From Segetibacter sp. (lineage in GTDB: Bacteria; Bacteroidota; Bacteroidia; Chitinophagales; Chitinophagaceae), in contig JAOQAJ010000122.1 in the NCBI GenBank assembly GCA_025963675.1, forward strand, positions 1 through 33,041: a DNA stretch of 33,041 nucleotides, given 5' to 3'. The translations under genes were made by a program, and so were the position numbers. Below, one piece after another: positions 2,486 to 27,323 of this stretch. The notes under the pieces are model-generated. The model did no database searches. It saw only the letters and a program-made list of their open reading frames with translations, and was not told where the DNA came from. Positions within the stretch are counted from its first letter, which is position 1, and every line of letters begins with the position of its first letter.

Positions 2486-3574
2486 TTGAAATTCTACTTT
2501 GCCCCCCGCCATGTGTTGTTGTTTTTAATTCAGGCTATTTGTATTTCTGGTTTTTGCCAGGACATGAATAATCTTAAACTAAAAGATTTTAAGCCTGTAT
2601 CTATCTATAAAGTGCCGCGTTCAAAAATTGAAAAGGCAAAGTTTCCTGTCATTGATTTCCATTCTCACGATTATCCGAAATCAGATGCGGAGGTTGATGC
2701 ATGGGTTAAGCGAATGGATCAGCTTAATATTTCAAAGACCCTCATTCTCTCTTACGCTACCGGTGCAAGATTAGATTCTTTAATTGAAAAATATTCACGT
2801 TATAAAGATCGATTCGAGATTTGGTGCGGCTTTGATTATACGGGGCATGAAAAGCCGGGATGGGAAAAGCATGCTGTTGCAGAGCTTGAAAGATGCTATA
2901 AGAAAGGCGCAAGAGGTGTAGGAGAATTAGGAGACAAGGGCCTCGGTGAATTGTATTCAAAACCTACCCCAGGCTACGGTTTACATATTGATGATCCTGC
3001 AATGAAACCGTTGTTGGAGAAATGTGCTGAACTTAAAATGCCTGTCAGTATTCATGTTGCGGAAGATCAATGGATGTATGAAAAGATTGATTCGACAAAT
3101 GATGGGTTGATGAACGCTTCAACATGGAGAGTTGATCAAACAAAGAAAGGAATACTTGGTCATGATGAGCTAATAAAGACTCTTGAAAACGCAGTAAGAA
3201 ATAATCCGAAAACAACTTTTATCGCCTGCCACCTGGCAAACACTAATTCTGACATGAGTGTGCTTGGAAGATTATTTGATCTCTATCCAAACCTTTATGC
3301 TGATATCGCTGCAAGATTTGGAGAGTTTGCCCCGATACCCCGTTATGCAAAAGCTTTCTTTGAAAAATATAATGACAGGCTCATTTATGGAACTGATATG
3401 GGACCAAATAATGAAATGTATTATACTACTTTTCGCATACTAGAATCGGCAGATGAACATTTCTATGATCATCGGTTGTTTAGCTACCACTGGCCGTTGT
3501 ATGGTTTGCAGTTAAATGATGAGACGCTTAAAAAAATATACAGCGAAAATGGTAAGAAGATTATGAGGCGTTGA
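2486..3574 (+). CDS. Exported amidohydrolase (Amidohydro_2-type TIM barrel)
   Basis: This 362-residue protein begins at a TTG. The first in-frame ATG (codon 27) lies after a clear signal peptide (hydrophobic VLLFLIQAICISGF, then CQ), so the TTG start is needed to keep the export signal. Metal-site residues of the amidohydrolase superfamily are visible: DFHSHD (His59, His61), SIHVAED (His190), ACHLAN (His249) and YGTDMG (Asp304). The set and order fit PF04909-type metal-dependent hydrolases or decarboxylases acting on C-N, C-O or C-C bonds; the substrate cannot be read from sequence. It heads a plus-strand run with the NagX-like gene, a second amidohydrolase and GH109, which suggests periplasmic processing of an amino-sugar-related compound. 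It is only distantly similar to the second amidohydrolase. Confidence 0.85.
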   Translation: MKFYFAPRHVLLFLIQAICISGFCQDMNNLKLKDFKPVSIYKVPRSKIEKAKFPVIDFHSHDYPKSDAEVDAWVKRMDQLNISKTLILSYATGARLDSLIEKYSRYKDRFEIWCGFDYTGHEKPGWEKHAVAELERCYKKGARGVGELGDKGLGELYSKPTPGYGLHIDDPAMKPLLEKCAELKMPVSIHVAEDQWMYEKIDSTNDGLMNASTWRVDQTKKGILGHDELIKTLENAVRNNPKTTFIACHLANTNSDMSVLGRLFDLYPNLYADIAARFGEFAPIPRYAKAFFEKYNDRLIYGTDMGPNNEMYYTTFRILESADEHFYDHRLFSYHWPLYGLQLNDETLKKIYSENGKKIMRR

Positions 3575-3635
3575 ATTCGCTATAAGTAGATATGATAAAC
3601 TTACTAAGATAACAGGTTGAATAAAGTTAAATAAA

Positions 3636-3661
3636 GTACAAGTGAGTGACACAAGGATGTT
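3636..3661 (+). repeat. Dispersed intergenic repeat, copy A
   Basis: This copy contains GTGAGTGACACAAGGATG preceded by GTACAA. It differs by one base in the core from copies B, C and E elsewhere in the window. It lies in the gap between the first amidohydrolase and the NagX-like gene. No strong internal hairpin is visible. Confidence 0.75.
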
Positions 3662-3741
3662 GAACAAAGCGCTTGTGCTGATACAATAAAAAACGACTTC
3701 TCACACCTCATTATTTGAATACTAAATTCGGAAAACAAACT

Positions 3742-4989
3742 ATGAATGTTGCTCATGCTGTTGAACCTAATGCTGAACAAAATGTAGCTACCGGCGCTGC
3801 TGTTAACCCGGCAATGCCGATGAAACGAGTAGCATCGGTCGACGTATACCGAGGCTTCGTTATGTTACTGATGATGGCAGAGGTATTATCGCTGGAGAAC
3901 GTAGCAGAAAAATTGCCGGGAAATTCTTTTTGGCAGTTTCTTGCATTTCATCAAAGTCATGTTGAGTGGACCTGGCTTTCGCTTCATGACATGATCCAAC
4001 CTTCATTTACGTTTTTAGTTGGTGTGGTTTTGCCGTTTTCTATTGCAGGCAGGCAAAACAAAGGCGCTACTAAAGCAAGTGTTTTAGCACATGCGTTTAA
4101 GCGCTCCCTTATCCTCATCTTACTGGGCATATTCCTTCGTTCGATGCACGCAAAGCAGACCAATTTTACTTTTGAAGATACCCTTACACAAATCGGCCTT
4201 GGATATACCTTTTTAGTGTTGCTTTCTTTTTATTCAAAAAAGGTGTGGTTAATAGTGTTGTCGCTGTTGTTAGTTGGATACTGGCTTGCATTTGCACTTT
4301 ATCCGCTTCCGGATGCAACGTTTGATTATGCAGCAGCAGGAGTGACTCCGGGATGGGAACATAACCTACAAGGGTTTGCAGCTCACTGGAATAAGAATAC
4401 CAATCTTGCATGGTCATTCGATCGCTGGTTCTTAAATCTTTTTCCGCGTGAAAAGCCCTTTCTAAGAAATGGCGGGGGATACGCCACGCTTAGTTTTATA
4501 CCCACTTTAGGAACGATGATTATTGGCCTGTTTGCAGGAGATGCTATAAAATCGCAAAGTTCATCAAGAGACAAATTAAAGTTTTTCGTTACAACAGGTG
4601 TCGCATTAATTATGGTAGGAGTGTTGTTACATGTTACAGGAATTAACCCAATCGTCAAGCGTATCTGGACTCCTGCCTGGACCATCTTTAGTGGCGGTAT
4701 TTGCTTTTTGTTTCTTGCGCTTTTTTATTGGCTGATTGATGTTAAGAACAAAAAGAACTGGTCTTTCTTTCTTACGGTGATAGGCGCCAACTCAATTGCT
4801 GCTTATGTACTCGCTGATGGCGGCATGAGACAAGTCATCTCTCAATCGCTTCATATTCATTTAGGCAAAACCTATGATCATGTTTTTGGTGATGCTTATT
4901 CGACTTTGGTAAATGGTGCCCTTGTTTTATTCTTTTTATGGCTGATCTTGTATTGGATGTATAAGAAAAAGATCTTTATTAAAATTTAA
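3742..4989 (+). CDS. DUF5009 / NagX-like multi-pass membrane protein (HGSNAT-related)
   Basis: This integral membrane protein has about ten hydrophobic segments. The N-terminal signature RVASVDVYRGFVMLLMM and the segment EWTWLSLHDMIQPSFTFLVG are typical of the COG4299/DUF5009 family, related to the catalytic domain of lysosomal heparan-alpha-glucosaminide N-acetyltransferase. The His82 and His91 region (numbered from the upstream TTG at 3715) matches the part of the fold holding the HGSNAT active histidine. In proteobacterial GlcNAc regulons a family member is called NagX and proposed to act in GlcNAc uptake or acetyl transfer. The nearby GH20, NagA and NagB genes support a similar amino-sugar role here. 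Start: I chose the ATG at 3742. The TTG at 3715 and Met codons at 3814 and 3820 are alternatives; the conserved part begins just after the latter. Confidence 0.85.
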   Translation: MNVAHAVEPNAEQNVATGAAVNPAMPMKRVASVDVYRGFVMLLMMAEVLSLENVAEKLPGNSFWQFLAFHQSHVEWTWLSLHDMIQPSFTFLVGVVLPFSIAGRQNKGATKASVLAHAFKRSLILILLGIFLRSMHAKQTNFTFEDTLTQIGLGYTFLVLLSFYSKKVWLIVLSLLLVGYWLAFALYPLPDATFDYAAAGVTPGWEHNLQGFAAHWNKNTNLAWSFDRWFLNLFPREKPFLRNGGGYATLSFIPTLGTMIIGLFAGDAIKSQSSSRDKLKFFVTTGVALIMVGVLLHVTGINPIVKRIWTPAWTIFSGGICFLFLALFYWLIDVKNKKNWSFFLTVIGANSIAAYVLADGGMRQVISQSLHIHLGKTYDHVFGDAYSTLVNGALVLFFLWLILYWMYKKKIFIKI

Positions 4990-5064
4990 GGCAAATGATT
5001 TAATTGAGATTTATCGCTAGTCGAGCTGTTAACATTTTCTCTTTAATCGGTTTTTTACAAACAA

Positions 5065-6195
5065 ATGAAATTATACAAACCTTTTCTATATCTGCGCTTG
5101 CTTGTAGTATCAGCTTTGCTACTGCAATGTACGTCTGCAAACCAACGTCTTTCACAAACCAATGCTACTGAAAATGCTTATTACTCAATTGAAGATTTTG
5201 CAAATGTTGTAAAATATGATACGCATGTTCATCTTAATGTTGATGATACCGCCTTTGTCACACAAGCCAGGGCCGATAACTTTCGATTACTGACTGTAAA
5301 CGTTAACCCGGCTTATTATCCCCCTATAGAAGAACAACGAAGCATTGCAATGAAATTGGTGGATGCTTATCCCAACCAATTGGCCTATGCAACTACTTTT
5401 TCATTGGATAATTGGGATAGTGATGAATGGCAGCAAAAGGCGTTGAACTACCTCAAAGAATCTTTTGACAAAGGTGCCATTGCTGTGAAGGTCTGGAAAA
5501 ATGTAGGGATGGAGTTGAAAGATAAGAATGGTAAATTCGTGATGATTGACAATCCAAAATTTGACCCAATCATTGATTATCTTGCCAAAAAGCACATTCC
5601 GTTAATAGGTCATCTGGGCGAGCCTAAAAATGCATGGATGCCTTTGAATCAAATGACAATTAAAAGCAATCAAAACTATTTTAGTAAGCACCCGGAATAT
5701 CACATGTACTTGCACCCTGAATATCCATCTTACGAGGATCAGATAAGTGCGAGGGATCGTATACTGCAAAAGCACCCTGATCTTATTTTCGTTGGTGCAC
5801 ACCTGGGAAGTTTGGAATGGAGTATTGAGGAACTGGCGAAGCGGTTGGATAGATTTCCGAACATGGCGGTTGATATGGCAGCACGGTTATCGGCGCTTCA
5901 ATACCAGGCAGCAACAAACTGGCAGGGTGTTCGTGATTTTTTTATCAAATACCAGGACCGGCTCATTTATGCAACAGATTTGGAAGCAGCGGGAAACATA
6001 AATGCACCTGAATTACAAAAGCGTATCCATGATAGTTGGTTACGTGACTGGAACTTTTTTGTCAGTGACCTATCCATGCATTCCAGTAGCTTTGATGAAG
6101 CTTTTAAAGGATTGAAGTTGCCAAAATCAGTCGTTAACAAAATTTATCGAAACAATGCCGAAAAGTGGTTTAAGGGAATTAATAAACACAGGTAG
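5065..6195 (+). CDS. Second exported amidohydrolase (possible lipoprotein)
   Basis: This 376-residue protein starts with a hydrophobic leader ending LLLQC. Cys22 could be a lipidation site, but Gln at the -1 position is atypical, so either a lipoprotein or a secreted protein is possible. Amidohydrolase-type metal residues are visible: YDTHVHLN (His54, His56), a Lys in AVKVWKN (about residue 142) that could be a metal-bridging or active-site lysine, GHLGEP (His183), GAHLGSLEW (His246) and YATDLE (Asp305). This is the same superfamily as the gene at 2486, but it is clearly divergent rather than a recent duplicate. It follows the NagX-like gene by 75 bp and precedes the GH109-type gene. The substrate is unknown; the context suggests periplasmic work on an amide or lactone bond of the imported ligand. 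Confidence 0.83.
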   Translation: MKLYKPFLYLRLLVVSALLLQCTSANQRLSQTNATENAYYSIEDFANVVKYDTHVHLNVDDTAFVTQARADNFRLLTVNVNPAYYPPIEEQRSIAMKLVDAYPNQLAYATTFSLDNWDSDEWQQKALNYLKESFDKGAIAVKVWKNVGMELKDKNGKFVMIDNPKFDPIIDYLAKKHIPLIGHLGEPKNAWMPLNQMTIKSNQNYFSKHPEYHMYLHPEYPSYEDQISARDRILQKHPDLIFVGAHLGSLEWSIEELAKRLDRFPNMAVDMAARLSALQYQAATNWQGVRDFFIKYQDRLIYATDLEAAGNINAPELQKRIHDSWLRDWNFFVSDLSMHSSSFDEAFKGLKLPKSVVNKIYRNNAEKWFKGINKHR

Positions 6196-6228
6196 TATTC
6201 TCGTCATCAGGGGAAAAACCTTAAAAGA

Positions 6229-6265
6229 AAGCTTCAAGCTGCTAGCTTCAGGCTACAAGCTTTTC
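6229..6265. repeat. AGCT-rich intergenic repeat with hairpin potential
   Basis: Several AGCTT/AAGCT blocks occur here. The outer arms AAAGCTT and AAGCTTT can pair, and an inner AAGCT/AGCTT pair surrounds GCT. A related AGCT-rich block is at 31646-31720. It may form a weak terminator or cruciform after the second amidohydrolase, but there is no proper T-tract. Confidence 0.55.
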
Positions 6266-6283
6266 ATGCTCGTTTTGAAAAAA

Positions 6284-6317: not shown

Positions 6318-6359
6318 ACTTCTAAAAAGTATTAATTAAAATATAAACATTCATAAAAA

Positions 6360-7778
6360 ATGAAAGACAACCGCAGGAATTTTTTAAAGTTAACAAGCCT
6401 CACAGGTCTTGGACTTGCTGGTGGTGTAATGAAAGGGTTTGCGAAAGAAACGGAAACTACTCTTCCTTCAAATAATTCTGCTGATCAATTCTTTGCAGAT
6501 CGTTTTAATATGTCAGGCTATGCGGCACCTAAGATCGAAAACGTAAGAGTTGGCTTTATTGGGCTGGGAATGCGCGGACCCACACACCTCACTAATATGA
6601 TTAAGCTTGGCGGAGTGTCAGTGGTTGGATTGTGTGACATCCGGGAGGAACAAGTACTTAAAGCCCAAAAGCTGATTGAAAAATCAGGACAAAAGCCAAC
6701 ACTTTATTCCGGAGATAAGGATGCCTGGAAGAAGCTCTGCGACCGTAAAGATGTGGACTTAATTTTCATCGCAACTCCCTGGGCTTTGCATGTGCCACAA
6801 GCCGTATATGCAATGGAGCAAGGCAAACATGTTGCCATCGAGGTGCCTGCTGCTAAAACAGTAGATGAATGCTGGCAGTTAGTGAGAACATCTGAAAAGA
6901 CGCGTAAGCATTGCATGATGCTTGAAAACTGTTGTTATGATTTTTTTGAACTGATGACATTAAACATGGCACGTCAGGGCTTCTTTGGCGACGTCATTCA
7001 TACTGAAGGTGCTTACATTCATTACCTGCTGGATCTGAATTTCCAAAAGGATGGGTACTACGATATGTGGCGGTTAAAAGAGAATATCGGAAGGAACGGG
7101 AATCTATATCCTACTCATGGACTCGGCCCTATTTGTCAGGTCATGAACATCAACAGGGGAGACAAGATGGACTACCTGGTGTCGATGTCGAGCATCGATA
7201 ATATGATGGGAGATGAAGCAAAAGAACTTGCAGCAAAAGACAGTTTTTATAAATCTTTTGTCAATAAGCCTTATAGGGGTAACATGAATACGACGGTTAT
7301 TAAAACCAATAAAGGCAAAACGATCATGGTTCAACATGATGTGACTTCACCTAACGTTTATTCACGGATTCATAAGATTAGCGGCTCTAAAGGATCTGCT
7401 TTGAAATATCCTACACCAAGAATAGCATCTGGTCATAATAAATGGCTTTCGGAATCAGAATATAAAACGATTGAAGAAAAGTACCGCCCTGCTATAGTGA
7501 AGAAAGTGGGTGAACTGGCTAAACAAGTTGGTGGCCACGGTGGAATGGATTTCTTAATGGACTGGCGACTGATTGACTGCCTTAGAAACGGATTAGCACT
7601 TGACCAGGATGTATATGATGCCGCATTATGGAGTGCGATCGCACCATTAAGTGAAAAGTCTGTAGCCAATCGCTCATCATCAGTTGATGTACCGGACTTT
7701 ACAGGGGGCTTATGGAAAAAAAATACACCCGTTGATTTATCGTTGGAGAAAGGTGGAAATACTTTAGTAAAACTATAA
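6360..7778 (+). CDS. GH109-type Gfo/Idh/MocA protein (putative alpha-N-acetylgalactosaminidase), Tat-exported
   Basis: This 472-residue protein has a twin-arginine signal (NRRNFLKLTSLTGLGLAGG, residues 4-22) and an NAD-binding Rossmann motif GFIGLGMRG (residues 65-73). Blocks resembling GH109 enzymes are visible: EVPAAKTVDECW (about 161-172), MLENCCYDFFELMTLNMARQ (about 187-206), EGAYIH (216-221) and NGNLYPTHGLGP (about 246-257), followed by INRGDKMDYLVSMSS. GH109 enzymes such as that from Elizabethkingia meningoseptica cleave alpha-N-acetylgalactosaminides by an NAD-dependent redox mechanism. Tat export as a folded protein fits the bound NAD. The surrounding GH20, nagA and nagB genes agree with a HexNAc substrate. 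Activity is not proven, because many Gfo/Idh/MocA proteins with this leader act on other sugars. Confidence 0.85.
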   Translation: MKDNRRNFLKLTSLTGLGLAGGVMKGFAKETETTLPSNNSADQFFADRFNMSGYAAPKIENVRVGFIGLGMRGPTHLTNMIKLGGVSVVGLCDIREEQVLKAQKLIEKSGQKPTLYSGDKDAWKKLCDRKDVDLIFIATPWALHVPQAVYAMEQGKHVAIEVPAAKTVDECWQLVRTSEKTRKHCMMLENCCYDFFELMTLNMARQGFFGDVIHTEGAYIHYLLDLNFQKDGYYDMWRLKENIGRNGNLYPTHGLGPICQVMNINRGDKMDYLVSMSSIDNMMGDEAKELAAKDSFYKSFVNKPYRGNMNTTVIKTNKGKTIMVQHDVTSPNVYSRIHKISGSKGSALKYPTPRIASGHNKWLSESEYKTIEEKYRPAIVKKVGELAKQVGGHGGMDFLMDWRLIDCLRNGLALDQDVYDAALWSAIAPLSEKSVANRSSSVDVPDFTGGLWKKNTPVDLSLEKGGNTLVKL

Positions 7779-8259: not shown

Positions 8260-10338
8260 TTATTTACTCCAATCGTTAATTCTCGAATTCATCGCTAATT
8301 CATAGACATACATCCAATCTGAATTATTTGTTCCGTTCGCCAAATGGTGATGTTGATTTTGGTCCAGAATGTAACCTTCCGGATTCTCAATAATCCGTGT
8401 CTTCGAAAAGACCTGTTCGTAGTTATTTCTTATTGCTTTAAAGTTGTCAGCAAATTTTCCTATTTCATTTTTTGCAGCAGCTTTATCAGAACCCGAAGCA
8501 TTGTCATATTTTTCTAATAACACCAACAACCTTGCAGGATAGATCTGCAATTCATTTATTTGATTCATCAATTGCAATGAGTATTCATTTTGACGCGCCA
8601 TCTGAGTTGCTTTTGCCAACCTGTTTTTCACCTCCTGGTATCTTACAATCTCGTTTTTGGCCTGGTTAATTTTTGCCTTGTATTTTTCACTCCAGGTTCT
8701 GCTGGTGTTCTGCTCTGGCAATTCTATCAACTCGATCTTGTTCGGGTAATTATTCCGGTGACCTTTGGTAATGAGAGCCGTCTCCCAGAACTCCAATGCC
8801 TTTTCGAGAGAGTCCTGGAATTCGAAAGAAGCATTGGCCAGCGCGGGGGCATAGAACCGGTGACGAAACCTGCTATGAACATCATCTACTTTTGCATCGG
8901 TATAATTCCAGCTAAAAAAACCGAAATTATATAAACCACGCCAGTAGGTTTCGAAATGAGGAGAGCAATCATCCCAGGCCGTGCATAATATTCCATCCAT
9001 TTTCTTTTCTGCCGTTATTCTACAGAAATCTTTTATCGGCTGAAAGTTTGATTTTTCTCTTGGCAGTATGGGCCACATCGTTTGGGCTGCTGTAGCTGCC
9101 ATAGCTTTTAAGTTGTGAGATTTATACCAGTCAATTGCTTTATTGTTTCCTAATATATCAGGTGTGTCATAATTCCATCTCATATACACACACTCTTTGG
9201 GGAAAAGTCCAAGGTTTTCATCCAGCCGATGTGCGTTGGCCTGCCATGTTTTGTTCACCTCTTCAGCAGAAATTTTCGGATCATAGGTTGTGCGATAAAG
9301 ATCAGCGAGCTTAAACAACATATCATCCCAAAAAATAGGAATCCTGTTATGACTGGTGGCAAATTCACACACTTTTTTAAGCCATTGCATTTGTAATTGC
9401 ATCGGTGTTAATCCAGACTTTTTCGACAATTCAGACATTCCTAAGTGCCCAACTTCATCACCACCAATATGCAAATATTTTCCATAAGGAGTAGCAGCAA
9501 TAGCATCTTCATACAAAGAAAATTGCAGTTCATAGGTTTGGGGATTCATAGGATCAAATGACCAGTCAGATGCAATAGTATCACGAAGGGTTTTCAACTT
9601 CTCGTGTTTTAAAATAAATGACGCGTGTCCAAGTCCTTGTATCAGGGGGCTAATTTCAATGTTTCTTTCTTTTGCATACCTGCTGATGGCAGCAAACTCC
9701 TGTATAGAGATAGCGTGCGCGGCACCAACTTCAGGAGATTTGCGGTAACGTAGTTTGTCTTCAAATTCTACAATGATTGCATTTACTTTTATATGTGCCA
9801 AACGATCAATTACATCATAGTAATATCCTGTTGCGTCGAGGTGATGCTTTAAATCGAGATGAACAGCACGATAAGCAATCTCAGGAAAATCGGTAATGTT
9901 ACACGCAGGAATTTCTATTTGTTGTGCATGTGCATCGTCAATTAATTGCAACAGTGTCTGGCAGCCATAAAATAATCCCGCTTGTGCAGAAGCTGTAATC
10001 ATTACCTGGTTATTCTTAATGCTAAGCGTATACCCTTCTGGTGAATGTTGGTTATTGTTGGATGTTGATAAACTTAAAACCAATACCCCTGGTCCCGCAC
10101 TGGCCGAGTAGGGCAGTTGCTTTAATTCACCAGATAAAACAGGCTTAACTGCACCACCATTTAAATAAACTGCTTTCAGCGAATTATACAGCATACCCCT
10201 ACCGACTGACAAGTCTATTTTTTGTGGTTGAGGCATTAACCTAAAGTGCTTGTCGAACTCTTCTTTGGCTCCGGCGACAACATCAACTGATACCAGGAAG
10301 CAAATAAATAATAAAAGACCAGCAAATTTATTTTTCAT
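8260..10338 (-). CDS. GH20 beta-N-acetylhexosaminidase, exported
   Basis: From the ATG at 10338 the protein is 692 residues and starts with a signal peptide (MKNKFAGLLLFICFLVSV). An upstream in-frame GTG at 10389 would put 17 residues before the signal, so I rejected it. After the leader comes a GH20 domain-2-like alpha/beta region (about residues 30-150), then the catalytic TIM barrel. It holds the hallmark HIGGDE (about 290-295), where the Asp-Glu pair orients the substrate acetamido group and acts as acid/base. Trp-rich barrel motifs IFWDD and CTAWDD follow. The C-terminal 200 residues are helical and charged. GH20 enzymes release terminal beta-GlcNAc or beta-GalNAc by substrate-assisted catalysis. 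It is the last gene of the minus-strand operon, 53 bp after nagA. Confidence 0.93.
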   Translation of the reverse strand: MKNKFAGLLLFICFLVSVDVVAGAKEEFDKHFRLMPQPQKIDLSVGRGMLYNSLKAVYLNGGAVKPVLSGELKQLPYSASAGPGVLVLSLSTSNNNQHSPEGYTLSIKNNQVMITASAQAGLFYGCQTLLQLIDDAHAQQIEIPACNITDFPEIAYRAVHLDLKHHLDATGYYYDVIDRLAHIKVNAIIVEFEDKLRYRKSPEVGAAHAISIQEFAAISRYAKERNIEISPLIQGLGHASFILKHEKLKTLRDTIASDWSFDPMNPQTYELQFSLYEDAIAATPYGKYLHIGGDEVGHLGMSELSKKSGLTPMQLQMQWLKKVCEFATSHNRIPIFWDDMLFKLADLYRTTYDPKISAEEVNKTWQANAHRLDENLGLFPKECVYMRWNYDTPDILGNNKAIDWYKSHNLKAMAATAAQTMWPILPREKSNFQPIKDFCRITAEKKMDGILCTAWDDCSPHFETYWRGLYNFGFFSWNYTDAKVDDVHSRFRHRFYAPALANASFEFQDSLEKALEFWETALITKGHRNNYPNKIELIELPEQNTSRTWSEKYKAKINQAKNEIVRYQEVKNRLAKATQMARQNEYSLQLMNQINELQIYPARLLVLLEKYDNASGSDKAAAKNEIGKFADNFKAIRNNYEQVFSKTRIIENPEGYILDQNQHHHLANGTNNSDWMYVYELAMNSRINDWSK

Positions 10339-10391
10339 ATAAGCAATGTTTTTCCTGTTAGTTTCTTCCGTGATAATGAAGGATGACACAA

Positions 10392-16561: not shown

Positions 16562-16605
16562 CTTTTATCACTATTTACCAAAAACACTGAAAATAATAAT
16601 GTTCT

Positions 16606-19600: not shown

Positions 19601-19644
19601 AGCAGATGGCCGATCTGATTGCTTACCTGAAGCAAAACAAATAG
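16606..19644 (+). CDS. PVC-type heme-binding protein (beta-propeller dehydrogenase-like + HEAT repeats + cytochrome c)
   Basis: This 1012-residue protein starts with a hydrophobic export or anchor segment (about 11-25). Residues about 45-420 resemble the beta-propeller of sugar dehydrogenases (membrane-bound dehydrogenase domain of planctomycete type), with repeated DxDxDG-like loops (DSDKDGQMD, DTDNDGRAD) and YVVDYYRQ. Residues about 440-850 are helical, HEAT-like. The C-terminal 122 residues form a cytochrome c domain with CSSCH (891-895) covalently binding one heme and a possible axial Met in SSMPTG. This matches the PVC-type CxxCH architecture described from Planctomycetes and Verrucomicrobia. 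It could oxidise a sugar or amino sugar in the periplasm and pass electrons to the respiratory chain; the substrate is unknown. It lies between the ceramidase-like gene and SusC. Confidence 0.87.
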   Translation: MNRTFYPLKNRILYLIIILTVIIVSWKNHSGNSVGEGGGKEALSTFELEPGFKIELVADEPLIADPVDMEIDEYGRMYVVEMHGYPLNKTGSGKIKLVTDSDKDGQMDKSTVFADGLTLPNSILRWKKGVMVTDAPYVLYFEDTDNDGRADIKDTLLTGFALSNPQHNLNNPVYGIDNWIYLGHEGAVGTQAYKEQFGDPGSEVYYPGHPESPRLARNASGRSVRFQPDKHLLETLSSNTQFGHTFDAWGHYFLVSNANHIFQEVIAAQYLNRNPELVVSNATQNISDHQNAAEVFPITKNPEHQLLTDVGVITSACGITSYQGGAFPAPFNNVTFVAEPVSNLVHVDRIKENGVSFTASRIHPNKEFLASTDSWFRPVNMYIGPDGALYVVDYYRQIIEHPEWMGDEVVKSGKLYNGSDKGRIYRITPKNAPSANWIKGLKLGDASVDELIQQLANPNIWWRLNAQRLLVDRRDRNAVQGLTEMARNTKSAHGRLHALWTLEGLGELTPGVIKQALKDPVAGVRENAIKLAELHLSEAPQLQNSLLSLKADPDKKVRFQLLCTLGSVNTPAASQVRNRLLFKDIKEPWMQVAALSAGASQSGALLKVVVDSFKTNDPAYASLVERLSTMIGTSEKPEVIRTLVQNSLVPGSTTQAVWKGALLKGLSQGIKNQQVKAELKGEQNALINAVFANPSKPVRDAAVGLLKVVGLQNDDTVEQAKTTAAAIAANRNRPADKRVEAIRFIALSNPAPYGDLLKNLIAPTEQPAVQLAAMQTLSTLPGTAVSQYLLTKWADLTPDIRNEAINTFLNDNARIAMLLDALENGIIQKSTIGWPRSVRLMAQRDVKLRDRARVLLTKDEGERAKVNKDYQPALALNGNSANGRNIFFKNCSSCHQVRGSLGVEFGPDLGTIHNWSGEAIMANILAPNMSISSGFDLWAVELKDGSSFQGIISTETPTAITLKNAGNEIRTIKRSEVKSLKALNMSSMPTGLEKQINHQQMADLIAYLKQNK

Positions 19645-19970
19645 GGAAATTTCTTGTGTTTATATAAAACCGGCAATATTGGGAATATAAAAAGTTAAGA
19701 CTGCTATTAACTTATCAAATAATAGAACCGCCTATCAAGCATCCTGGTACACATTATCTCCAATTCATCCGTATTCACCGATAAAAGTATTTTTTATCAT
19801 TCATCGGTTGTTAAAAATGCATTGACATGTTTTAACTCTTGCTGTATTAACTGTACATTAGTCAGACCAAGATGATCCCCTGTTTTTAAACGATTATTGT
19901 ATGGCTTAATTCAAAAAAAGCTATAAAATCATTGTGTCGTTTTTTATTTATTTTAAACCAAAAACTACTT
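19645..19970. promoter_or_regulatory. susC upstream region with hairpin
   Basis: This 326-bp AT-rich gap before SusC probably holds its promoter or leader. A hairpin can form at 19777-19808: ACCGAT pairs with ATCGGT, and inside it GATAAAA (19780-19786) pairs with TTTTATC (19792-19798). It could terminate read-through from the heme-protein gene or act as a leader structure. No convincing TAnnTTTG element was found. Confidence 0.45.
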
Positions 19971-22900
19971 ATGAGATTAGTTGCAAACGACAAATGTTCG
20001 CATTTGCCAAAGCTTTTTATGAAAAAGCTCCTGCTTTTCAGTGTTACTTCTCTTTTTTTATTTGCTTTTAGCCTTAGTGCCGCAGCAAAAAAACATGCAC
20101 CACCCCCAATTGATATTACTGGTAAAGTAACCGACGACAAGGGAGAACCTGTTGCCGGAGCATCTGTATTTATTGCCGGGACGTCAAAAGGTACTACCAC
20201 AAATAGCGCCGGCGAATTTGTTATCAATGTCCCTGGTTCCGCAACGAAACTTGAGATTTCAAACGTTGGTTTCCAGACTCAAACAATCCAGGTTGGTAAC
20301 GGTACTCACTTAACCATTTCGTTGGTTAAATCTATTGCAGGTTTAGACGACGTAGTGGTGGTTGGTTATGGTCGGGTAAGAAAACGTGACTTGACCGGTT
20401 CAGTTTCGTCTGTATCATCAAGAGATATCACATCCTATCCGGCACCAGGCGCATTACTTGCACTGCAAGGTAAAACAACAGGGGTACAGGTGCTACAGAA
20501 TTCAGGTGCTCCGGGAGCTCCTATCACTGTTCGCGTGCGGGGTGCCAATTCACTATTAGGCAACAATGAGCCGCTCTACGTTGTTGATGGTTTTCCGTTG
20601 ACCAGCGATCCTAACGCTATCAATCCTAACGACATTCAATCCATCGAGATTTTGAAAGATGCCTCTGCAACTGCCATATATGGATCAAGAGGTGCAAATG
20701 GTGTGATACTTATCACAACCAAAACCGGAAGAGCAGGCAGGAGTGAAGTAACTTTTGACAGTTATTATGCAACTCAAAAGGTAACTAAGACAATTCCCAT
20801 GCTGAATGCAAAACAGTTTGCTGAAATAGCAAATGAGCGCGCTGCCAACGATGGTAACGCTGCCTATTTTACCCAGGACCAGGTAAATTCGTTTGGTGAA
20901 GGAACCGACTGGCAAAAAGCATTATTCCGCACTGCGCCAATGCAAAATCATGCTATCAATGTAGCAGGCGGAAATGAAAATACCCAATACTCCGTTTCCG
21001 GAAGCTTTTTGAAGCAAGATGGTATTATTGCCGGCTCAGCTTTAGAAAGAGGTTCATTAAGGGCTAACCTTTCTCAAAAGATAAGTGAAAAGATAAGGAT
21101 GAGTTATAATGCCATTATGACCAACACTAATCTTTCTCAGTTAGACATCAATGGCCAAAAAGGTGGCACCACTTTGTCTGCTGTTTTGGTTGCTCCGCCA
21201 ACGATTGCCCCAGTTGATGCAAATGGAAACTACAATAATATAAGAGCTTACGTTTTTAGCCCAAATGAATTAAGAAATCCACTAGCCATCTCAACCCAAC
21301 GCAGGCAAAAAGCAAATACAAGATACATTCTGGCCGGAACTGCGGTGAACTACGAGCTGGTTAAAGATCTGATGTTCCGATCTTCAATAGGTATAGAATC
21401 AGTTAATACACGTGAGGACCTTTATTCTACACGACTACTGGATAACTCACCCACCGGAAGTGCATCTATCAGATTTGACAACCTGATGAATGTGCTGAAT
21501 GAAAACACCCTGACTTTCAACAAGAAGATAAACGAGGATAACAGCGTTAATGCTCTTGCTGGTTTCACCTACCAGGATAATAGATTTAAAACGGCAGGTA
21601 CTGGTACAGCATCCGGTTTCTTGACTGACCAATTTGAAACAAACAACCTTTCTGCTGGTACAGTATTCGGTACGCCTTCCAGTAATTCTTCCCGCTGGAC
21701 TTTGATCTCTTACCTTGGTCGTGTTAATTACTCCTTTAAAAATACTTACCTGTTAACTGCAAGTATCCGGGCTGATGGCTCATCACGTTTTGGAGAGGGC
21801 AACAAATGGGGATATTTTCCATCCGCAGCTTTTGCATGGAGAGCTATTAACGAAAGCTTCATGCAAAATCAGAACTCTTTATCTGACCTCAAATTCAGGG
21901 CATCGTGGGGAGTTACAGGAAATACCGCTATCGATCCATATCAAACACTTAATACGCTTACCACTTACAATGCCGTTTTCGGCGACACCCGTTACGTTGG
22001 TTTTGCCCCAAACAATAACAGCCTGGCTAATCCTAATCTGAAATGGGAAACCACCATTCAGACAGACTTCGGAGTTGATGTTGGCGTATTAAAAGATCGT
22101 CTTAGCCTTAGTTTTGACTACTACAACAAAGACACCCGTGACTTGCTTGCAAGCATACAGTTACCTACTTCAGCCGGGTACTCTAATACCTTGAGCAATG
22201 TAGGAAGAATAAGAAATAGGGGTATTGAACTGGGTCTAAACGGAATAATCATAGACTCCAGGGCAGTAAAATGGTCAATGGGCGTAAACTTCACTAAGAA
22301 TAAAAGCAAGGCAATTAAGCTCGCCGGTGGAAGCGACGTTTTTGGTGTAGCCATTCCTCAACCACTTTCTGTATCAGTAAACCTTGTTAGGGAAGGTCTT
22401 CCTGTCGGGGTTTTCTACGGCTTTCTCGAAGATGGTCTCGATGCCAATGGTGCCATCAAATACAAGGACCTTGATGGAAAAGCGGGCATAACAAATGCTG
22501 ACAGAACAATTATCGGTGATCCAAATCCTGACTTTATTTACAATGTGAATTCCAGGACGAGCTTCAAAAATCTCGAATTGAACTTTTCCATCCAGGGAGT
22601 TCAGGGCAACGATATTTTCAATGTGAACAAAACAGCGGTAGCCAACAGTTTCTATTTCGGCGAAAATCAGTTGAGTGATGTTTACAATAACCATTGGACT
22701 GCATCAAAGCCTGATCCTAACGCAAAATATCCTAAGCTGAGCACTAAGACTGTGTTCTCCGCTTCAGACCGTTTTGTTGAAGATGGTTCTTTTTTAAGGT
22801 TGAAAAACATTCAACTTGGATATAACATCCAACCTTCTAAACTCGGTGTACGGTGGATCAAGAACTTCCAGTTGTATGTAAGCGGCCAGAACTTGTTGAC

Positions 22901-23033
22901 AGCAACAAAATATTCATGGTACGATCCTGAAATAAACACTCGTGGAGGAAGTAATTCATTTTCCAACGGAATTGATAACGCTGGTTACCCTAATGCAAAG
23001 ACTTATACTGTCGGAGCTAGAATGACCCTTTAA
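19971..23033 (+). CDS. SusC/RagA-family TonB-linked outer-membrane transporter
   Basis: This transporter is about 1020 residues. The ATG at 19971 has the same ACTTATG context as the starts at 14892 and 24867. The in-frame ATG at 20019 (MKKLLLFSVTSLFLFAFSLS) would begin directly at the signal peptide and is equally plausible. After the leader comes a carboxypeptidase-like regulatory domain (ITGKVTDDKGEPVAGASVF), then the TonB-box region DDVVVVGYGRVRKRDLTGSV. The plug follows, with VRVRGANSLLGNNEPLYVVD and IYGSRGANGVILITTK. The rest is a 22-strand-type beta-barrel ending TYTVGARMTL. It imports oligosaccharides or other large ligands with the SusD lipoprotein encoded 28 bp downstream. No N-terminal STN domain is seen, which fits the absence of a neighbouring ECF sigma/anti-sigma pair. 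Confidence 0.95.
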   Translation: MRLVANDKCSHLPKLFMKKLLLFSVTSLFLFAFSLSAAAKKHAPPPIDITGKVTDDKGEPVAGASVFIAGTSKGTTTNSAGEFVINVPGSATKLEISNVGFQTQTIQVGNGTHLTISLVKSIAGLDDVVVVGYGRVRKRDLTGSVSSVSSRDITSYPAPGALLALQGKTTGVQVLQNSGAPGAPITVRVRGANSLLGNNEPLYVVDGFPLTSDPNAINPNDIQSIEILKDASATAIYGSRGANGVILITTKTGRAGRSEVTFDSYYATQKVTKTIPMLNAKQFAEIANERAANDGNAAYFTQDQVNSFGEGTDWQKALFRTAPMQNHAINVAGGNENTQYSVSGSFLKQDGIIAGSALERGSLRANLSQKISEKIRMSYNAIMTNTNLSQLDINGQKGGTTLSAVLVAPPTIAPVDANGNYNNIRAYVFSPNELRNPLAISTQRRQKANTRYILAGTAVNYELVKDLMFRSSIGIESVNTREDLYSTRLLDNSPTGSASIRFDNLMNVLNENTLTFNKKINEDNSVNALAGFTYQDNRFKTAGTGTASGFLTDQFETNNLSAGTVFGTPSSNSSRWTLISYLGRVNYSFKNTYLLTASIRADGSSRFGEGNKWGYFPSAAFAWRAINESFMQNQNSLSDLKFRASWGVTGNTAIDPYQTLNTLTTYNAVFGDTRYVGFAPNNNSLANPNLKWETTIQTDFGVDVGVLKDRLSLSFDYYNKDTRDLLASIQLPTSAGYSNTLSNVGRIRNRGIELGLNGIIIDSRAVKWSMGVNFTKNKSKAIKLAGGSDVFGVAIPQPLSVSVNLVREGLPVGVFYGFLEDGLDANGAIKYKDLDGKAGITNADRTIIGDPNPDFIYNVNSRTSFKNLELNFSIQGVQGNDIFNVNKTAVANSFYFGENQLSDVYNNHWTASKPDPNAKYPKLSTKTVFSASDRFVEDGSFLRLKNIQLGYNIQPSKLGVRWIKNFQLYVSGQNLLTATKYSWYDPEINTRGGSNSFSNGIDNAGYPNAKTYTVGARMTL

Positions 23034-23061
23034 TTCTAAAAGCATTTTAAAAAAATAAGCA

Positions 23062-24525
23062 ATGAAATTCAATAAAATATTACCTGCTTCAGCTGCCCTG
23101 TTTATGCTTGTGGCATCATGCTCCAAGCAGCTACAGGAAAAGCCGGAAAGCTTGTTGTCAACCACTAATTTTTACAAAACTAAAGCAGATGCTGTAGCGG
23201 CGGTTGATGCTATCTATAATCCTCTTCGCAATGAATATGGCGGAACAGAATGGGGAGGCCAGTTTACTGCTGCAGAGGATTATTCGTATGGTACCGGCAT
23301 TTATGCTGCCATTGGCCAGTACGTATTGACCTCGTCCGATATCGGAAGAACTGATGCGTCATGGAGAAATTTTTACCGTTCTATCCGTAATGCGAATCTT
23401 GTTTTAAAATATGTTCCGCCTATCCTCATGACTGATGCAGAAAGAAATGCCATTTTAGGAGAAGCCCGTTTTTTACGTGCGCTTGCCTATCGCAATCTTG
23501 TACGCAGTTGGGGGGCTGTTCCGTTAAGGACCGATCCAACAGAAAATGTTGAACAGGTTCACATGAAAAGAACGCCGGTGGCAGAAGTTAATGCATTCAT
23601 TATCGAAGATTTGAAATTTGCTGAAACAAACTTGCCTAATTCACAGTCTATGATTGGTCGGCCAACAAAATGGTCTGCTAAAGTATTCCTTGCAGATTTT
23701 TACCTGTATAATGAGAAATGGCAGGAGGCCCGTGATAAGGCGGACGAGGTAATTAAGGCAAATGTCTACTCACTGGTTCCAGTTACGAAACCTTCTGATT
23801 TCGAAAATATTTTCGGACCGACGGTTCAAACGCACACCGAGGATGTTTTCTCTTTTAAATATTCAAGAGCAAACGGAGGTTCGCAAATTGCGCAGCAATA
23901 CGCAATGCCTAATAGCGCTTATTCAGAAAACGGGTACTCTTCTTTTTATGGTGTACCTACGATGCCGCTTCTGAGAGATTGGGATAAAAACGACTTAAGG
24001 TACCAGTTCGACGTTTATACTTCTTACCCCAACCGTTCTGGGGCAATTACTCCAACAAGTGCTGATAGGCCATTGATGTTCGGCAAGTTTAAAGACGCCG
24101 GGTTCGCACCTAGTCATGGCAACGATTTTCCTATTTATCGTTATCCTGATGCGCTGTTTATCTATGCAGAGGCAGATAACCAGGTTAGTGGTGGTCCTAC
24201 CGTTCTTGCCCTCGAAAGATTGAATATGGTACACAGAAGGGCATACGGCTATTCTGCGACAGCACCTTCTCCGGTTGATTTTACAATTGCGACAGCTCCT
24301 ACTGCACAGGCTTTCAGAGATCTTGTCTTAAGAGAAAGAGCCTACGAGTTCCTTGCCGAACACAAACGTTGGTTCGATCTTGTTCGTACGAAAACATACA
24401 AACAGGTGATCAAGGAAGCGAAAGGAATTGACGTACCCGATAAGTTTTTGCTGTTTCCGATCCCGCAGGCAGAGATAGACAATAACGACGAGATCGCTGC
24501 AGGCGATCAAAATCCCGGTTACTAA
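23062..24525 (+). CDS. SusD/RagB-family nutrient-binding lipoprotein
   Basis: This 487-residue lipoprotein has a leader ending LVASC (Cys20 is the lipidation site). SusD features are visible: an N-terminal FYKTKADAVAAVDAIYNPLR helix, TPR-like helices with NANLVLKYVP and GEARFLRALAYRNLVRSWGAVPL, a later ALFIYAEADNQ block, and the C-terminal ERAYEFLAEHKRWFDLVRT followed by LLFPIPQAEIDNN. SusD proteins sit on the outer-membrane surface and cap the SusC barrel, binding the ligand. It follows SusC by 28 bp, so the two are co-transcribed. Ligand identity cannot be predicted from sequence; the HexNAc-processing neighbours suggest a GlcNAc- or GalNAc-containing glycan or glycoconjugate. Confidence 0.95.
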   Translation: MKFNKILPASAALFMLVASCSKQLQEKPESLLSTTNFYKTKADAVAAVDAIYNPLRNEYGGTEWGGQFTAAEDYSYGTGIYAAIGQYVLTSSDIGRTDASWRNFYRSIRNANLVLKYVPPILMTDAERNAILGEARFLRALAYRNLVRSWGAVPLRTDPTENVEQVHMKRTPVAEVNAFIIEDLKFAETNLPNSQSMIGRPTKWSAKVFLADFYLYNEKWQEARDKADEVIKANVYSLVPVTKPSDFENIFGPTVQTHTEDVFSFKYSRANGGSQIAQQYAMPNSAYSENGYSSFYGVPTMPLLRDWDKNDLRYQFDVYTSYPNRSGAITPTSADRPLMFGKFKDAGFAPSHGNDFPIYRYPDALFIYAEADNQVSGGPTVLALERLNMVHRRAYGYSATAPSPVDFTIATAPTAQAFRDLVLRERAYEFLAEHKRWFDLVRTKTYKQVIKEAKGIDVPDKFLLFPIPQAEIDNNDEIAAGDQNPGY

Positions 24526-24585
24526 TAGTTAAATGTGAAGATCGGGCGTTTGCATTTTTTGGGAACGAGCTATGATTGGTAATTG

Positions 24586-24611
24586 AACATCGTTGTGTCA
24601 CTCACTTGTAC
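24586..24611 (-). repeat. Dispersed intergenic repeat, copy E
   Basis: The minus strand contains the exact core GTGAGTGACACAACGATG, preceded by GTACAA and followed by TT. It is the best match to copy A, with one mismatch over 26 bp. Confidence 0.8.
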
Positions 24612-24795
24612 GATTCGTTATTTATTCAGCCATGGCATCACAATAGGTAAAGCATGTAGTTGGATCTTTTTGAAACATAAATAGAATTTTGCCAAATATT
24701 GAATAAATACCTTCTTATCCATTCCGTCGGAAAAAGAGTTTTTACAGAAGAAATTAAAGTCGGGAAAGACACAGATTATTGTAGAAGCAGTTCCT

Positions 24796-24835
24796 AATAA
24801 AAACAATTTACCAGTACCGGTAAATTGTTTTTATT
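24796..24835. terminator. Strong bidirectional terminator-like hairpin
   Basis: There is a perfect 17-bp inverted repeat: AATAAAAACAATTTACC (24796-24812) and its complement (24819-24835), with a 6-base loop. The A-run on one side and T-run on the other let it act in both directions. It ends 32 bp before the PHP gene start, so it probably separates the SusCD transcript from that gene. Confidence 0.8.
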
Positions 24836-24866
24836 ATTGGCAATTCATATTCAAGTATCACAACTT

Positions 24867-27323
24867 ATGAAATTCATCAAATTCTTAAAAAGGTCACCAT
24901 TTGTCTGTTTTCTTGTTCCTTTTCTGCTTGCATATTTTAGTACACCTGCCCAGCACGAACATCAACGTGAGCAACAAAGTCAGGGACTGAAATTGATTGA
25001 AAAAGTGGAGGCTCAGCCGTTGCTCTCACAAGCACTAAGAATTGGTGAAGCGCTGAACTATATTGGCAACGCTTTGCCCCAACATGCAACGGCCCGTTTA
25101 CAGGAATTGAAAAATTTGCCCTACAATGCAAAAACTGTAAAAGCAATCCAGGAAATATTAGATCCGTATTGCCTGGCGGAGGTAGAAATAAATCCCGAAG
25201 CAAGGGTGAAGGTTAGTGCCGGTCCTGCAAAACCAGAATTGATACAGGAAGGTTGGAAAAGTTATTTGGTTAAAGTACATAACCAGGCACACATTGTTAC
25301 AAGGCTGGCTGCTGAAAGCCCAAATGCAAGTCCTTTGTTTTATACGTCAACATTTTCTCATCGAATGTTGCCAAAAAATAAACTGACACAAGGACAACTC
25401 GACAATAGTTTTCTTCAAATGGCTATGTATCGTGATCGCCCTTTGCAACAGAATTTATCAGGCCTGGAACTTGAATACGTCGTGTTGCAATTATATACCC
25501 GCAGCAAGGGAAAACGTGAGGCACAAATTGGTTTTAATGTTGGACAAGGAACCCAGGACATCGCTTTTAGAAATACAGTAAGTATTCTCTTTGATATCAG
25601 GCCCGCGGTCAAAATGGTCTTTGATGTAAAAGATGAAGACAATCAGCCGACCATGGCTTCATTCATCATAACTGATCACGTTGAAAGGTTTGGTCGCACA
25701 AAGGAAAAAACAGGGCTACCCTGGCGTCTTCCATGGCGCGACTGGGAACCGGTAAAGATGGACAAACCAATTGACACGATTGCACCAATAAATAAACTAA
25801 GCGGCATTTATCCATTACCGGCCCGAAGACTGGCAATGACAGATGTATACCCCGACTTCAATTTTCAACCGCAGGTGTATCGTTCTTCCGGCGAGTATGT
25901 TTACTTATCTCCCGGCACGTACGATGTCGTTTATACAAGAGGCCCGGAATATTTACCTCAATATCAAAAGATAACTATCCCGGAGAATAAAGATTCCATC
26001 AAAGTAAGCTTCCGGTTAAAGCGATGGATACAAATGTCAAAACTTGGCTGGTACAGTGCCGATCATCATATTCATGCAGCGGGATGTTCGCATTACGAAA
26101 GCCCCGAGGAAGGAGTGAAACCGCTGGATATGTTTCGACAGATAAAAGGCGAAGATCTGAACCTGGGAAGTAACTTAACCTGGGGACCGAGTTGGTATTA
26201 CCAGAAGCAATATTTTACCGGAAAAGACAATCCCTTATCTGACAAAAAAAATGTGTTGCGGTATGATATTGAAGTGTCTGGTTTCCCATCTTCGCACGCT
26301 GGTCACATTTGCTTATTGAATTTGAAGGAAGATGATTATCCAAATACAAAAGTTATTGAAGACTGGCCAACATGGACGCTACCTGTATTGCAATGGGCAA
26401 AGAAACAAGGCGGAATAACTGCTTACGCACATTCAGGTTGGGGGCTTGAACCTACTACGCCAACTTCCGCCATTCCAAATTATGTAATGCCTAAGCTCGA
26501 TGGTATTGGCGCAAACGAATACGTCGTTACGGTAACTCATGGCGCCGTGGATTATTATTCTCTTGGCGACACGCCAGTACCCTGGGAGTTGAATATGTGG
26601 TACCATACTTTGAACTGTGGTTTTAGAACAAGGATTGGTGGCGAGACTGATTTCCCTTGCATCTCAGATGAACGGGTAGGCTTAACGCGGAGTTATGCAA
26701 AACTGAAAAATGGGATAACCTTTGCTGGTTTTATGGATTGCCTTAAACGAGGCAGCAACTATGTCTCTGACGGTTTTTCTCACCTGATCGATTTTAAGGT
26801 TAATAATTTAGAAGCAGGTGAAAAAAATAGTGAATTGTCAGTTGCAGCAAACTCGACCCTTAACGTTACCGTTAGGGCTGCTGCAATGCTTAGCGAAACC
26901 CAGGATGAAACAGGAAAGTATATTGCTGCCCGTACTCCTGAACAATCTCCCTACTGGAATATCGAACGGGCACGAATTGGAACATCAAGAAACATTAACG
27001 TAGAACTGATTGTGAACGGGCAGTCGGTTGAAAAGAAACAAATCTCAGCAGATGGAAAATGGAATGATTTAAAGTTCAACTATAAACTGCAGCGATCATC
27101 GTGGCTAGCCGTTCGAATTAATTCCAGTGCACATACCAACCCAATATTTGTAATAGTTGATGGCAAACCAATTGTTGATCAGAAAAGTGCGATTTGGTGT
27201 CGTGATGTAGTCGACAAATGCTGGTCTACAAAAAGCCCTGCAATACGCAAAGAAGAACTGCCGGCAGCAAAAGCGGCCTACGAACAGGCAAGAAAAACAT
27301 ATGAGGCAATGATTACAAAATAA
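24867..27323 (+). CDS. Exported CehA/McbA-family PHP-type metallohydrolase
   Basis: The start at ATG 24867 places a signal peptide at once (KRSPFVCFLVPFLLAYFSTPAQ) and matches the ACTTATG start context. An earlier in-frame TTG at 24825 lies within the terminator hairpin. The protein is 818 residues. The N-terminal 390 residues are beta-rich, without a known motif. The metallohydrolase part has YSADHHIHAAG (about 396-406), AYAHSGWG, a GIGANEYVVT segment and GGETDFP, typical of the CehA/McbA subgroup of PHP phosphoesterase-like domains, which includes carbaryl hydrolase. These enzymes hydrolyse ester, amide or carbamate bonds with bound metal. The location just after SusD suggests action on the imported ligand; the substrate is unknown. 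Confidence 0.85.
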   Translation: MKFIKFLKRSPFVCFLVPFLLAYFSTPAQHEHQREQQSQGLKLIEKVEAQPLLSQALRIGEALNYIGNALPQHATARLQELKNLPYNAKTVKAIQEILDPYCLAEVEINPEARVKVSAGPAKPELIQEGWKSYLVKVHNQAHIVTRLAAESPNASPLFYTSTFSHRMLPKNKLTQGQLDNSFLQMAMYRDRPLQQNLSGLELEYVVLQLYTRSKGKREAQIGFNVGQGTQDIAFRNTVSILFDIRPAVKMVFDVKDEDNQPTMASFIITDHVERFGRTKEKTGLPWRLPWRDWEPVKMDKPIDTIAPINKLSGIYPLPARRLAMTDVYPDFNFQPQVYRSSGEYVYLSPGTYDVVYTRGPEYLPQYQKITIPENKDSIKVSFRLKRWIQMSKLGWYSADHHIHAAGCSHYESPEEGVKPLDMFRQIKGEDLNLGSNLTWGPSWYYQKQYFTGKDNPLSDKKNVLRYDIEVSGFPSSHAGHICLLNLKEDDYPNTKVIEDWPTWTLPVLQWAKKQGGITAYAHSGWGLEPTTPTSAIPNYVMPKLDGIGANEYVVTVTHGAVDYYSLGDTPVPWELNMWYHTLNCGFRTRIGGETDFPCISDERVGLTRSYAKLKNGITFAGFMDCLKRGSNYVSDGFSHLIDFKVNNLEAGEKNSELSVAANSTLNVTVRAAAMLSETQDETGKYIAARTPEQSPYWNIERARIGTSRNINVELIVNGQSVEKKQISADGKWNDLKFNYKLQRSSWLAVRINSSAHTNPIFVIVDGKPIVDQKSAIWCRDVVDKCWSTKSPAIRKEELPAAKAAYEQARKTYEAMITK

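Follow-up and report, generated by a model that had tools for sequence, protein, structure and literature searches.

A probable N-acetylhexosamine utilisation locus of modular make-up, with a NagB-type protein of a separate clade, in Segetibacter sp.

Organization of the locus

The window, that is the whole stretch of 33,041 nucleotides analysed here, is contig 231 of a draft genome (444 contigs, 88% complete) of Segetibacter sp., family Chitinophagaceae (GenBank JAOQAJ010000122.1). It carries a gene cluster that is most likely directed at amino sugars and that probably works as a composite polysaccharide-utilisation locus for oligosaccharides bearing N-acetylhexosamine (HexNAc). The cluster is modular: GH109, NagB, NagA and an esterase-like alpha/beta hydrolase (abH); SusC, SusD and a PHP metallohydrolase; a ceramidase-like protein and a cytochrome; and the Amidohydro_2 protein amidoA occur apart from one another elsewhere. 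The most useful new point is a clade of NagB-type proteins with the motif FNDP, found in the company of GH109, NagA and abH.

The gene families named in the preliminary description were recovered from the list of open reading frames (ORFs) and the profile scans, which covered the 20 ORFs of at least 145 aa (Table 1). By strand, the genes form three runs: run A on the forward strand (2486-7778; amidoA, NagX-like, amidoB, GH109), run B on the reverse strand (14380-8260; abH, SnoaL, NagB-like, NagA, GH20), and run C on the forward strand (14892-27323; ceramidase-like, cytochrome, SusC, SusD, PHP). Runs B and C are divergent, with a gap of 511 bases between them. The SusC and SusD genes are adjacent and GH20 and GH109 lie in the same locus, two features by which Sus-type polysaccharide utilisation loci are recognised.

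Table 1. Predicted genes of the locus and the matches on which their assignment is based (export signals were assigned by eye)
Feature	Position	Strand	Basis
amidoA, Amidohydro_2 (PF04909) metallohydrolase, predicted exported	2486..3574	+	Pfam; signal by eye
NagX-like transmembrane glucosamine N-acetyltransferase	3715..4989	+	NF046061, 130.5 bits across the full model, below cut-off 480; no Pfam match
amidoB, second Amidohydro_2 protein	5065..6195	+	Pfam; lipoprotein-type signal by eye
GH109 alpha-N-acetylgalactosaminidase-type protein	6360..7778	+	PF21252, 133.8 bits, cut-off 27; Tat-type signal by eye
GH20 beta-N-acetylhexosaminidase-type protein	8260..10389	-	45.5 bits, cut-off 22.3; GGDE motif by eye
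NagA, N-acetylglucosamine-6-phosphate deacetylase	10392..11591	-	TIGR00221, 287.6 bits, cut-off 225.65
NagB-like protein, FNDP clade	11724..12482	-	TIGR00502, 157.7 bits, below cut-off 236.9
Small SnoaL/DUF4440 protein	12566..13012	-	Family scan; also kept in the same-genus locus
abH, esterase-like alpha/beta hydrolase	13073..14380	-	Weak AXE1, 24.1 bits; Tat-type signal by eye
Ceramidase-like protein	14892..16304	+	PF04734, 62.2 bits, N-terminal domain match only
PVC-type propeller + HEAT + cytochrome c protein	16606..19644	+	TIGR02604 and TIGR02603, both above cut-off
SusC-type TonB-dependent receptor	19932..23033	+	Family scan
SusD-type lipoprotein	23062..24525	+	Family scan
Putative CehA/McbA-type PHP metallohydrolase	24825..27323	+	NF038032, 268.9 bits, cut-off 80
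Unknown-function protein	27376..28074	-	No Pfam match; adjoins PHP in the same-genus locus too

The GH109 protein, whose class is predicted from its sequence, has 6t2b as its best solved relative (341 bits). Of the five GH20 matches in the source genome, that of the window GH20 protein scores lowest, and its type (E<=1e-80) is present in 2 of the 116 other genomes of the family (G059 and G081). In amidoA, residues H59, H61, H190 and D304 fall in invariant columns of the amidohydrolase alignment; a sequence search for solved structures gave no relative of amidoA and no usable relative of the PHP protein. Proteins characterised from the PF04909 superfamily are lactonases, decarboxylases and hydratases, so that the label "amidohydrolase" says little on amide bonds. 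The ceramidase-like protein reaches 53.7 bits against the neutral ceramidase model NF041649 (cut-off 1200) and covers only positions 19-231 of its 636. Histidines are aligned at H97 and H204 of 2zws, which we take to be two of its four zinc ligands. A role of this protein as a sphingolipid enzyme was dropped because of the score far below the curated cut-off. The amide- or ester-decorated ligand proposed in the preliminary description had been drawn from such family names; individual enzymes may nonetheless act on a conjugate of this kind.

For the PHP gene, an ATG near 24867 is a likelier start, as judged by eye, than the listed TTG. A near-perfect inverted repeat (24795-24836, 21-base arms, 95%, no loop) lies at the front of this gene and overlaps the listed TTG.

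The recurrent core and the FNDP clade of NagB

Genome comparisons covered 117 genomes of one family, among which G098 is the only other member of the genus. A gene is described as near another when it was matched by tblastn (E<=1e-10, coverage at least 30%) inside the fetched stretch (4.7 to 33 kb); some of the compared loci end at contig edges (e.g. G043 and G107). The scan of genome contigs for abH confirmed 85 places, and the 80 best were examined. GH109 (at least 45% identity) or NagB (at least 55%) was found near abH in 14 of these 80 loci, namely 13 of the 38 with an abH identity of at least 60% and one of the 42 below it (Fisher test, 0.0002). For loci of at least 13 kb, the counts are 13/26 and 1/31 (0.00008). 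The hosts include Runella, Dyadobacter, Daejeonella, Fodinibius and Chitinophagaceae. GH109, NagB and abH form an unbroken trio in one Runella and one Cytophagaceae genome, and do so together with an additional NagX-like gene in a Dyadobacter genome; in one Chitinophagaceae genome NagX-like, abH, GH109, NagB, MFS and NagA genes are consecutive (the MFS assignment comes from Pfam on a relative in the same cluster). At thresholds of 30-45% identity, the 80 loci gave no relatives of the window GH20, ceramidase-like protein, cytochrome, SusC, SusD or PHP; some of them have weaker matches to SusC, SusD and the cytochrome. Outside the genus, too, neighbourhood ties GH109, NagA, FNDP NagB and abH to one another, with co-occurrence by genome in support. 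This linkage bears out the HexNAc character first described for the locus, but not the idea that the whole block serves one N-acylated conjugate.

The window NagB-like protein carries FNDP where the solved B. subtilis NagB reads GIGRNGHIGFNEPG; the glutamate replaced is presumably an active-site residue. By score (157.7 against 236.9 bits in TIGR00502) as well as by motif (FNDP, not of the FNEP type), it falls outside canonical NagB. FNDP is present in 23 aligned rows (mostly as the full string of the window, with three variants) and FNEP, LNEP or MNEP in 14. The two groups separate in a tree of 41 rows with a support of 99/91; the tree carries a long-branch warning, and a few of its rows are the same gene twice. 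All 13 FNDP genes found in the family belong to 12 of the 117 genomes. A long-frame NagB (~640-675 residues) is present in 11 of 12 genomes examined for it, with the canonical motif in those checked. Next to relatives of abH and amidoA in Lunatibacter (L043, 7892-9775) and a Cytophagales genome (L035, 1701-3581), a NagB-type domain is part of a larger protein, of 627 and 626 residues, respectively; FNDP is present in that of L043.

The surroundings of the 13 FNDP genes differ from those of canonical NagB. NagA is found near 9 of them, GH109 near 7, abH (at least 60%) and NagX-like genes near 4 each, and MFS, LacI and kinase genes near 5, 5 and 2, respectively, where the last three queries were taken from three FNDP loci, which count by construction. 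None of these seven was found near canonical NagB at 11 control loci in 11 genomes (two of which, G064 and G007, are without FNDP NagB; the G038 copy was excluded), three of the stretches being short (8.5, 4.7 and 12.4 kb). The Fisher test gives 0.0006 for NagA, 0.006 for GH109, 0.04 for MFS and LacI, and 0.10 for abH and NagX, so that the enrichment of the latter two is not significant alone. With the window excluded, NagA, GH109 and abH are near 8, 6 and 3 of 12 FNDP genes. A weak SusC match lies near one of the 11 canonical genes. An AgaS-like SIS protein is encoded in 4 of the 12 FNDP genomes (G000, G028, G059 and G081; the source genome is included), compared with 8/117 overall, a distribution that weighs neither for nor against galactosamine 6-phosphate as a substrate of FNDP NagB.

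In relatives, LacI-type regulators are seen within the GH109/NagB/NagA/MFS clusters (L119, 10191-11204; L144, 5436-6464), and none was seen in the window. These proteins could regulate the core in the relatives.

The same-genus locus

The G098 locus has the order PHP, SusD, SusC, SnoaL, NagB, kinase, GH109, amidoB, NagX, amidoA, and its proteins are 64-90% identical to those of the window (95% for one SusC piece). The order and relative direction of amidoA, NagX, amidoB, GH109, NagB, SnoaL, SusC, SusD, PHP and the 27376 protein are common to both. Five window genes (GH20, NagA, abH, ceramidase-like and cytochrome) are missing from the G098 block. The interval between NagB and GH109 holds NagA and GH20 in the window and a single kinase in G098, and that between SnoaL and SusC holds abH, the ceramidase-like gene and the cytochrome gene in the window and ~0.25 kb in G098. 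Across the whole G098 genome, searches with abH (E<=1e-50), the ceramidase-like protein (E<=1e-20) and GH20 (E<=1e-80) gave nothing related, and these three therefore seem missing and not moved; NagA and the cytochrome were sought at the locus only. Of the genes flanking the window block, none was matched within the 38 kb retrieved around that of G098. The G098 kinase is of the APH family and related to N-acetylhexosamine 1-kinase (4wh1, 178 bits). A 56% relative of it is encoded on contig C333 of the source genome, and a relative is present in 14/14 genomes queried.

Distribution of the other modules

The PHP gene was found at 9 other loci in 8 genomes. In three of the nine (G098, G077 and G048) it adjoins an orthologous SusD (at least 66%), where the G048 contig starts within SusD and leaves SusC out of view. 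A distant SusD stands by PHP in G076, and the remaining five loci have none. No nag genes are near PHP in the 8 loci outside the genus. In G048, a ROK-SIS protein lies between SusD and PHP; its kinase family, we assume, includes amino-sugar kinases.

For the ceramidase-like protein (at least 60%), six other copies are present in 3 genomes, two of them on contigs of <7 kb. The cytochrome gene is near 3 of the 6: in G028 it is flanked by two ceramidase-like copies, and on contig C82 of G081 it lies ~12 kb from one, with GH109, FNDP NagB, distant SusCD and NagX-like genes beyond. HexNAc genes are near 2 of the 6 copies, both in one genome.

Orthologues of amidoA (at least 60%) are present in 13 of the 116 other genomes, of which 12 were examined (G076:C167 excepted). 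None of the 11 loci outside the genus (one a 3.6-kb contig) has an adjoining GH109, NagB or NagX orthologue. A GH20 relative lies 2.5 kb from amidoA in G059:C120; a distant SusCD pair is near it in G028, a distant SusC in G007, a short 32% GH109-like and a 29% cytochrome match in G081:C137, and a short 22% GH20 match in G064. In G063, amidoA and an abH-GH109 pair share one contig at a distance of 28 kb. In G007 and G107 (one genus), amidoA adjoins genes for a SIS protein, a PfkB kinase and a class II aldolase; this arrangement recalls N-acetylgalactosamine (GalNAc) 6-phosphate catabolism.

Six of the 80 abH loci also carry genes of the amidoA or amidoB type (39-54%): amidoA-type (39-49%) in Fodinibius L029 and L033, Cytophagales L035 and Lunatibacter L043, and amidoB-type in Daejeonella L016 and Bacteroidales L061. 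GH109 is also present in three of the four with an amidoA-type gene.

Co-occurrence was also counted by genome in the 115 genomes outside the genus, with kinship and genome richness uncorrected and with cut-offs that vary by gene. NagB is present in 6/7 abH genomes; amidoA in 6/7 abH genomes (p 2e-6), 6/10 NagB genomes and 3/3 ceramidase-like genomes (p 0.0009). Weaker associations are those of the ceramidase-like gene with abH (2/7, p 0.009) and NagB (2/10, p 0.02), and of amidoA with PHP (3/7 PHP genomes, p 0.02). The pairings of PHP with abH (2/7, p 0.06), NagB (2/10, p 0.11) and the ceramidase-like gene (1/3, p 0.17) are not notable. The amidoA gene, and perhaps also the ceramidase-like one, are thus features of the kind of genome that has the core, even where they lie away from it, and may be functionally tied to it.

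The link between the unusual genes and the nag and SusCD genes, on which the preliminary description had depended, is in this way largely dissolved: amidoA (no adjoining GH109, NagB or NagX orthologue in 11/11 loci) and the ceramidase-like gene (HexNAc genes near 2/6 copies) mostly stand apart, and PHP keeps SusD in 3/9 loci and nag genes only within the genus. In the case of the amidohydrolase-type genes the outcome is divided, with the genes near abH and the co-occurrence by genome in favour of a tie to the core and the close amidoA orthologues located elsewhere against it. The whole block as one system is set back, as its genes do not travel together, and is kept alive by the genome co-occurrence.

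Possible function and alternative explanations

From the families, gene order, modules and clades described above we infer the catalytic steps, substrates and their order as follows. SusC and SusD would take in a HexNAc-bearing oligosaccharide; in the periplasm, GH20 would cleave beta-linked HexNAc and GH109 alpha-linked GalNAc, and abH may strip an ester group. At the inner membrane, NagX could re-acetylate free glucosamine. Import and phosphorylation of the sugar would fall to a permease and a kinase with genes outside the locus (a candidate for the latter being the N-acetylhexosamine-1-kinase relative on contig C333), after which it would be deacetylated by NagA and deaminated by the FNDP-clade NagB. 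The GH109 protein and the kinase relative of G098 point to GalNAc as the sugar, GH20 suits both sugars, and NagA and NagB suit N-acetylglucosamine (GlcNAc).

Several observations weigh against this pathway. It leaves amidoA, amidoB, the PHP protein, the ceramidase-like protein and the cytochrome unexplained. Neither a sugar kinase nor an inner-membrane sugar permease or a regulator is present among the 20 scanned ORFs (for the regulator, ECF sigma/anti-sigma, HTCS and other types were considered, and this feature is not obligate). The NagX-like and NagB-like proteins both score below the curated cut-offs. The window-type GH20 is near none of the 80 abH loci and is rare in the family; instead, 4 of the 11 canonical NagB genes have weak GH20 matches (23-28%) nearby. 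GH109 occurs more widely than the core: of its 33 listed copies (27/117 genomes), 7 are located by FNDP NagB.

Alternatively, the whole block could be dedicated to a single amino-sugar conjugate, N-acylated or decorated in another way, on which the exported hydrolases would act successively. We consider this unlikely. The three close runs of the window would fit it, as would contig C82 of G081, where ~27 kb hold the ceramidase-like, cytochrome, GH109 and FNDP NagB genes, a NagX-like gene (26%) and two SusCD pairs of distant kinship, and contig C36 of the same genome, where a NagX-like gene (29%) stands directly ahead of a ceramidase-like gene; the amidohydrolase-type genes near abH and the co-occurrence of amidoA with abH, the ceramidase-like gene and PHP point in the same direction. 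The counts outside the genus for amidoA (0/11) and PHP (0/8), the five genes missing in G098, and the chance-level pairing of PHP with the ceramidase-like gene and with NagB argue against it. A further explanation, ordinary nag genes placed by chance beside unrelated loci in a hydrolase-rich genome, is less probable still: several modules do occur apart in other genomes, but ten genes are collinear in G098 although the flanks of the block are unmatched there, and the linkage of GH109, NagB, NagA and abH spans families. An oxidative route, in which extracytoplasmic oxidation of the sugar by the PVC-type cytochrome would give a lactone for the Amidohydro_2 proteins to open, is the most improbable of all. 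A glucose/sorbosone-dehydrogenase-cytochrome gene directly before the cytochrome gene in G081:C82, an SMP-30/gluconolactonase between NagB and NagA in G059 and a PQQ dehydrogenase after amidoA in G028 are compatible with it, but each of these linkages is a single case, lactonase activity in PF04909 is taken from general knowledge of the family, and NagA and NagB require, as established for the pathway, a phosphorylated and unoxidised sugar.

Within the composite HexNAc locus that we favour, a narrower and rather doubtful proposal can be made for the FNDP NagB. It might be devoted to the deamination of some other amino sugar phosphate than glucosamine 6-phosphate (GlcN-6-P), e.g. galactosamine 6-phosphate (GalN-6-P) derived from the GalNAc that GH109 releases, or a modified hexosamine, and might form, with GH109, NagA and abH, an uncharacterised HexNAc pathway of Bacteroidota beside the housekeeping GlcNAc route; a decorated form of that sugar would then be the target of abH and amidoA. 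A testable unit is now defined, the GH109-NagA-NagB(FNDP)-abH module, which is present in several families of Bacteroidota and has a NagB clade of its own. The preference of FNDP NagB for GlcN-6-P or GalN-6-P bears on the routing of GalNAc through a NagB-fold enzyme in environmental Bacteroidota. The locus also calls for caution, as genes near a SusCD pair need not all act on one glycan.

Comparison with known systems

The window locus appears nearest to the GalNAc/mucin locus BT4240-50 of Bacteroides thetaiotaomicron, which comprises SusCD, GH109 and a GalNAc kinase and for whose two operons an independent evolution is proposed (PMC11992087). The SusCD pair and GH109 of the window and the APH-family HexNAc kinase relative of the G098 locus are shared features. 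The scanned window ORFs include no GH2 galactosidase, M60 O-glycopeptidase, MFS or sigma/anti-sigma protein, and the APH-family HexNAc kinase is not in the window, though it is encoded on contig C333 of the source genome. As GH2, M60, MFS and the kinase are missing, the window locus is not a member of the BT4240-50 type. GH20, NagA, NagB, NagX, abH, PHP, the ceramidase-like protein and the cytochrome are additions of the window. With the GlcNAc nag regulons that include NagX (Shewanella/Xanthomonas type) it shares NagA, NagB, NagX, GH20 and TonB-dependent import; it differs in a NagB of another clade, the lack of NagK, NagP and NagR, and the presence of GH109. It may work as a variant of BT4240-50 and of the nag regulons. 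The chitin utilisation locus of Flavobacterium johnsoniae is similar as a GlcNAc-polymer locus of Bacteroidota in whose description GH20 and nagB are mentioned (PMC5127042), whereas no chitinase family is present in the scanned window ORFs. In a literature search made up mostly of titles and the beginnings of abstracts, with few subscription journals, no other locus of such make-up was found besides BT4240-50.

Base composition and dispersed repeats

The G+C content of the locus is 0.38-0.44, with the highest values (0.43-0.44) in the abH, ceramidase-like and cytochrome genes, and 0.42 in SusC-PHP, while the other two runs, like the right flank, are at 0.39-0.40. The third codon positions show no such step across the block, and the pattern is not taken as a clear foreign segment. 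An Rfam search of the window at gathering scores gave no match. An intergenic element with the core GTGAGTGACACAACGATGT (up to 3 mismatches) is dispersed over the window at 3642, 14716, 16451 and 24587, in both orientations. It is present in 5/6 other same-genus stretches examined, occurs twice (one place in two loci) in the 2.35 Mb of 174 other loci, and is absent from 50 mononucleotide shuffles of the window; it looks like a small genus-specific repeat. The non-coding segment 14479-14608, in the gap between abH and the ceramidase-like gene, has ~80-85% matches at two same-genus places that are not its counterpart (L106 and L107), and may be another dispersed repeat.

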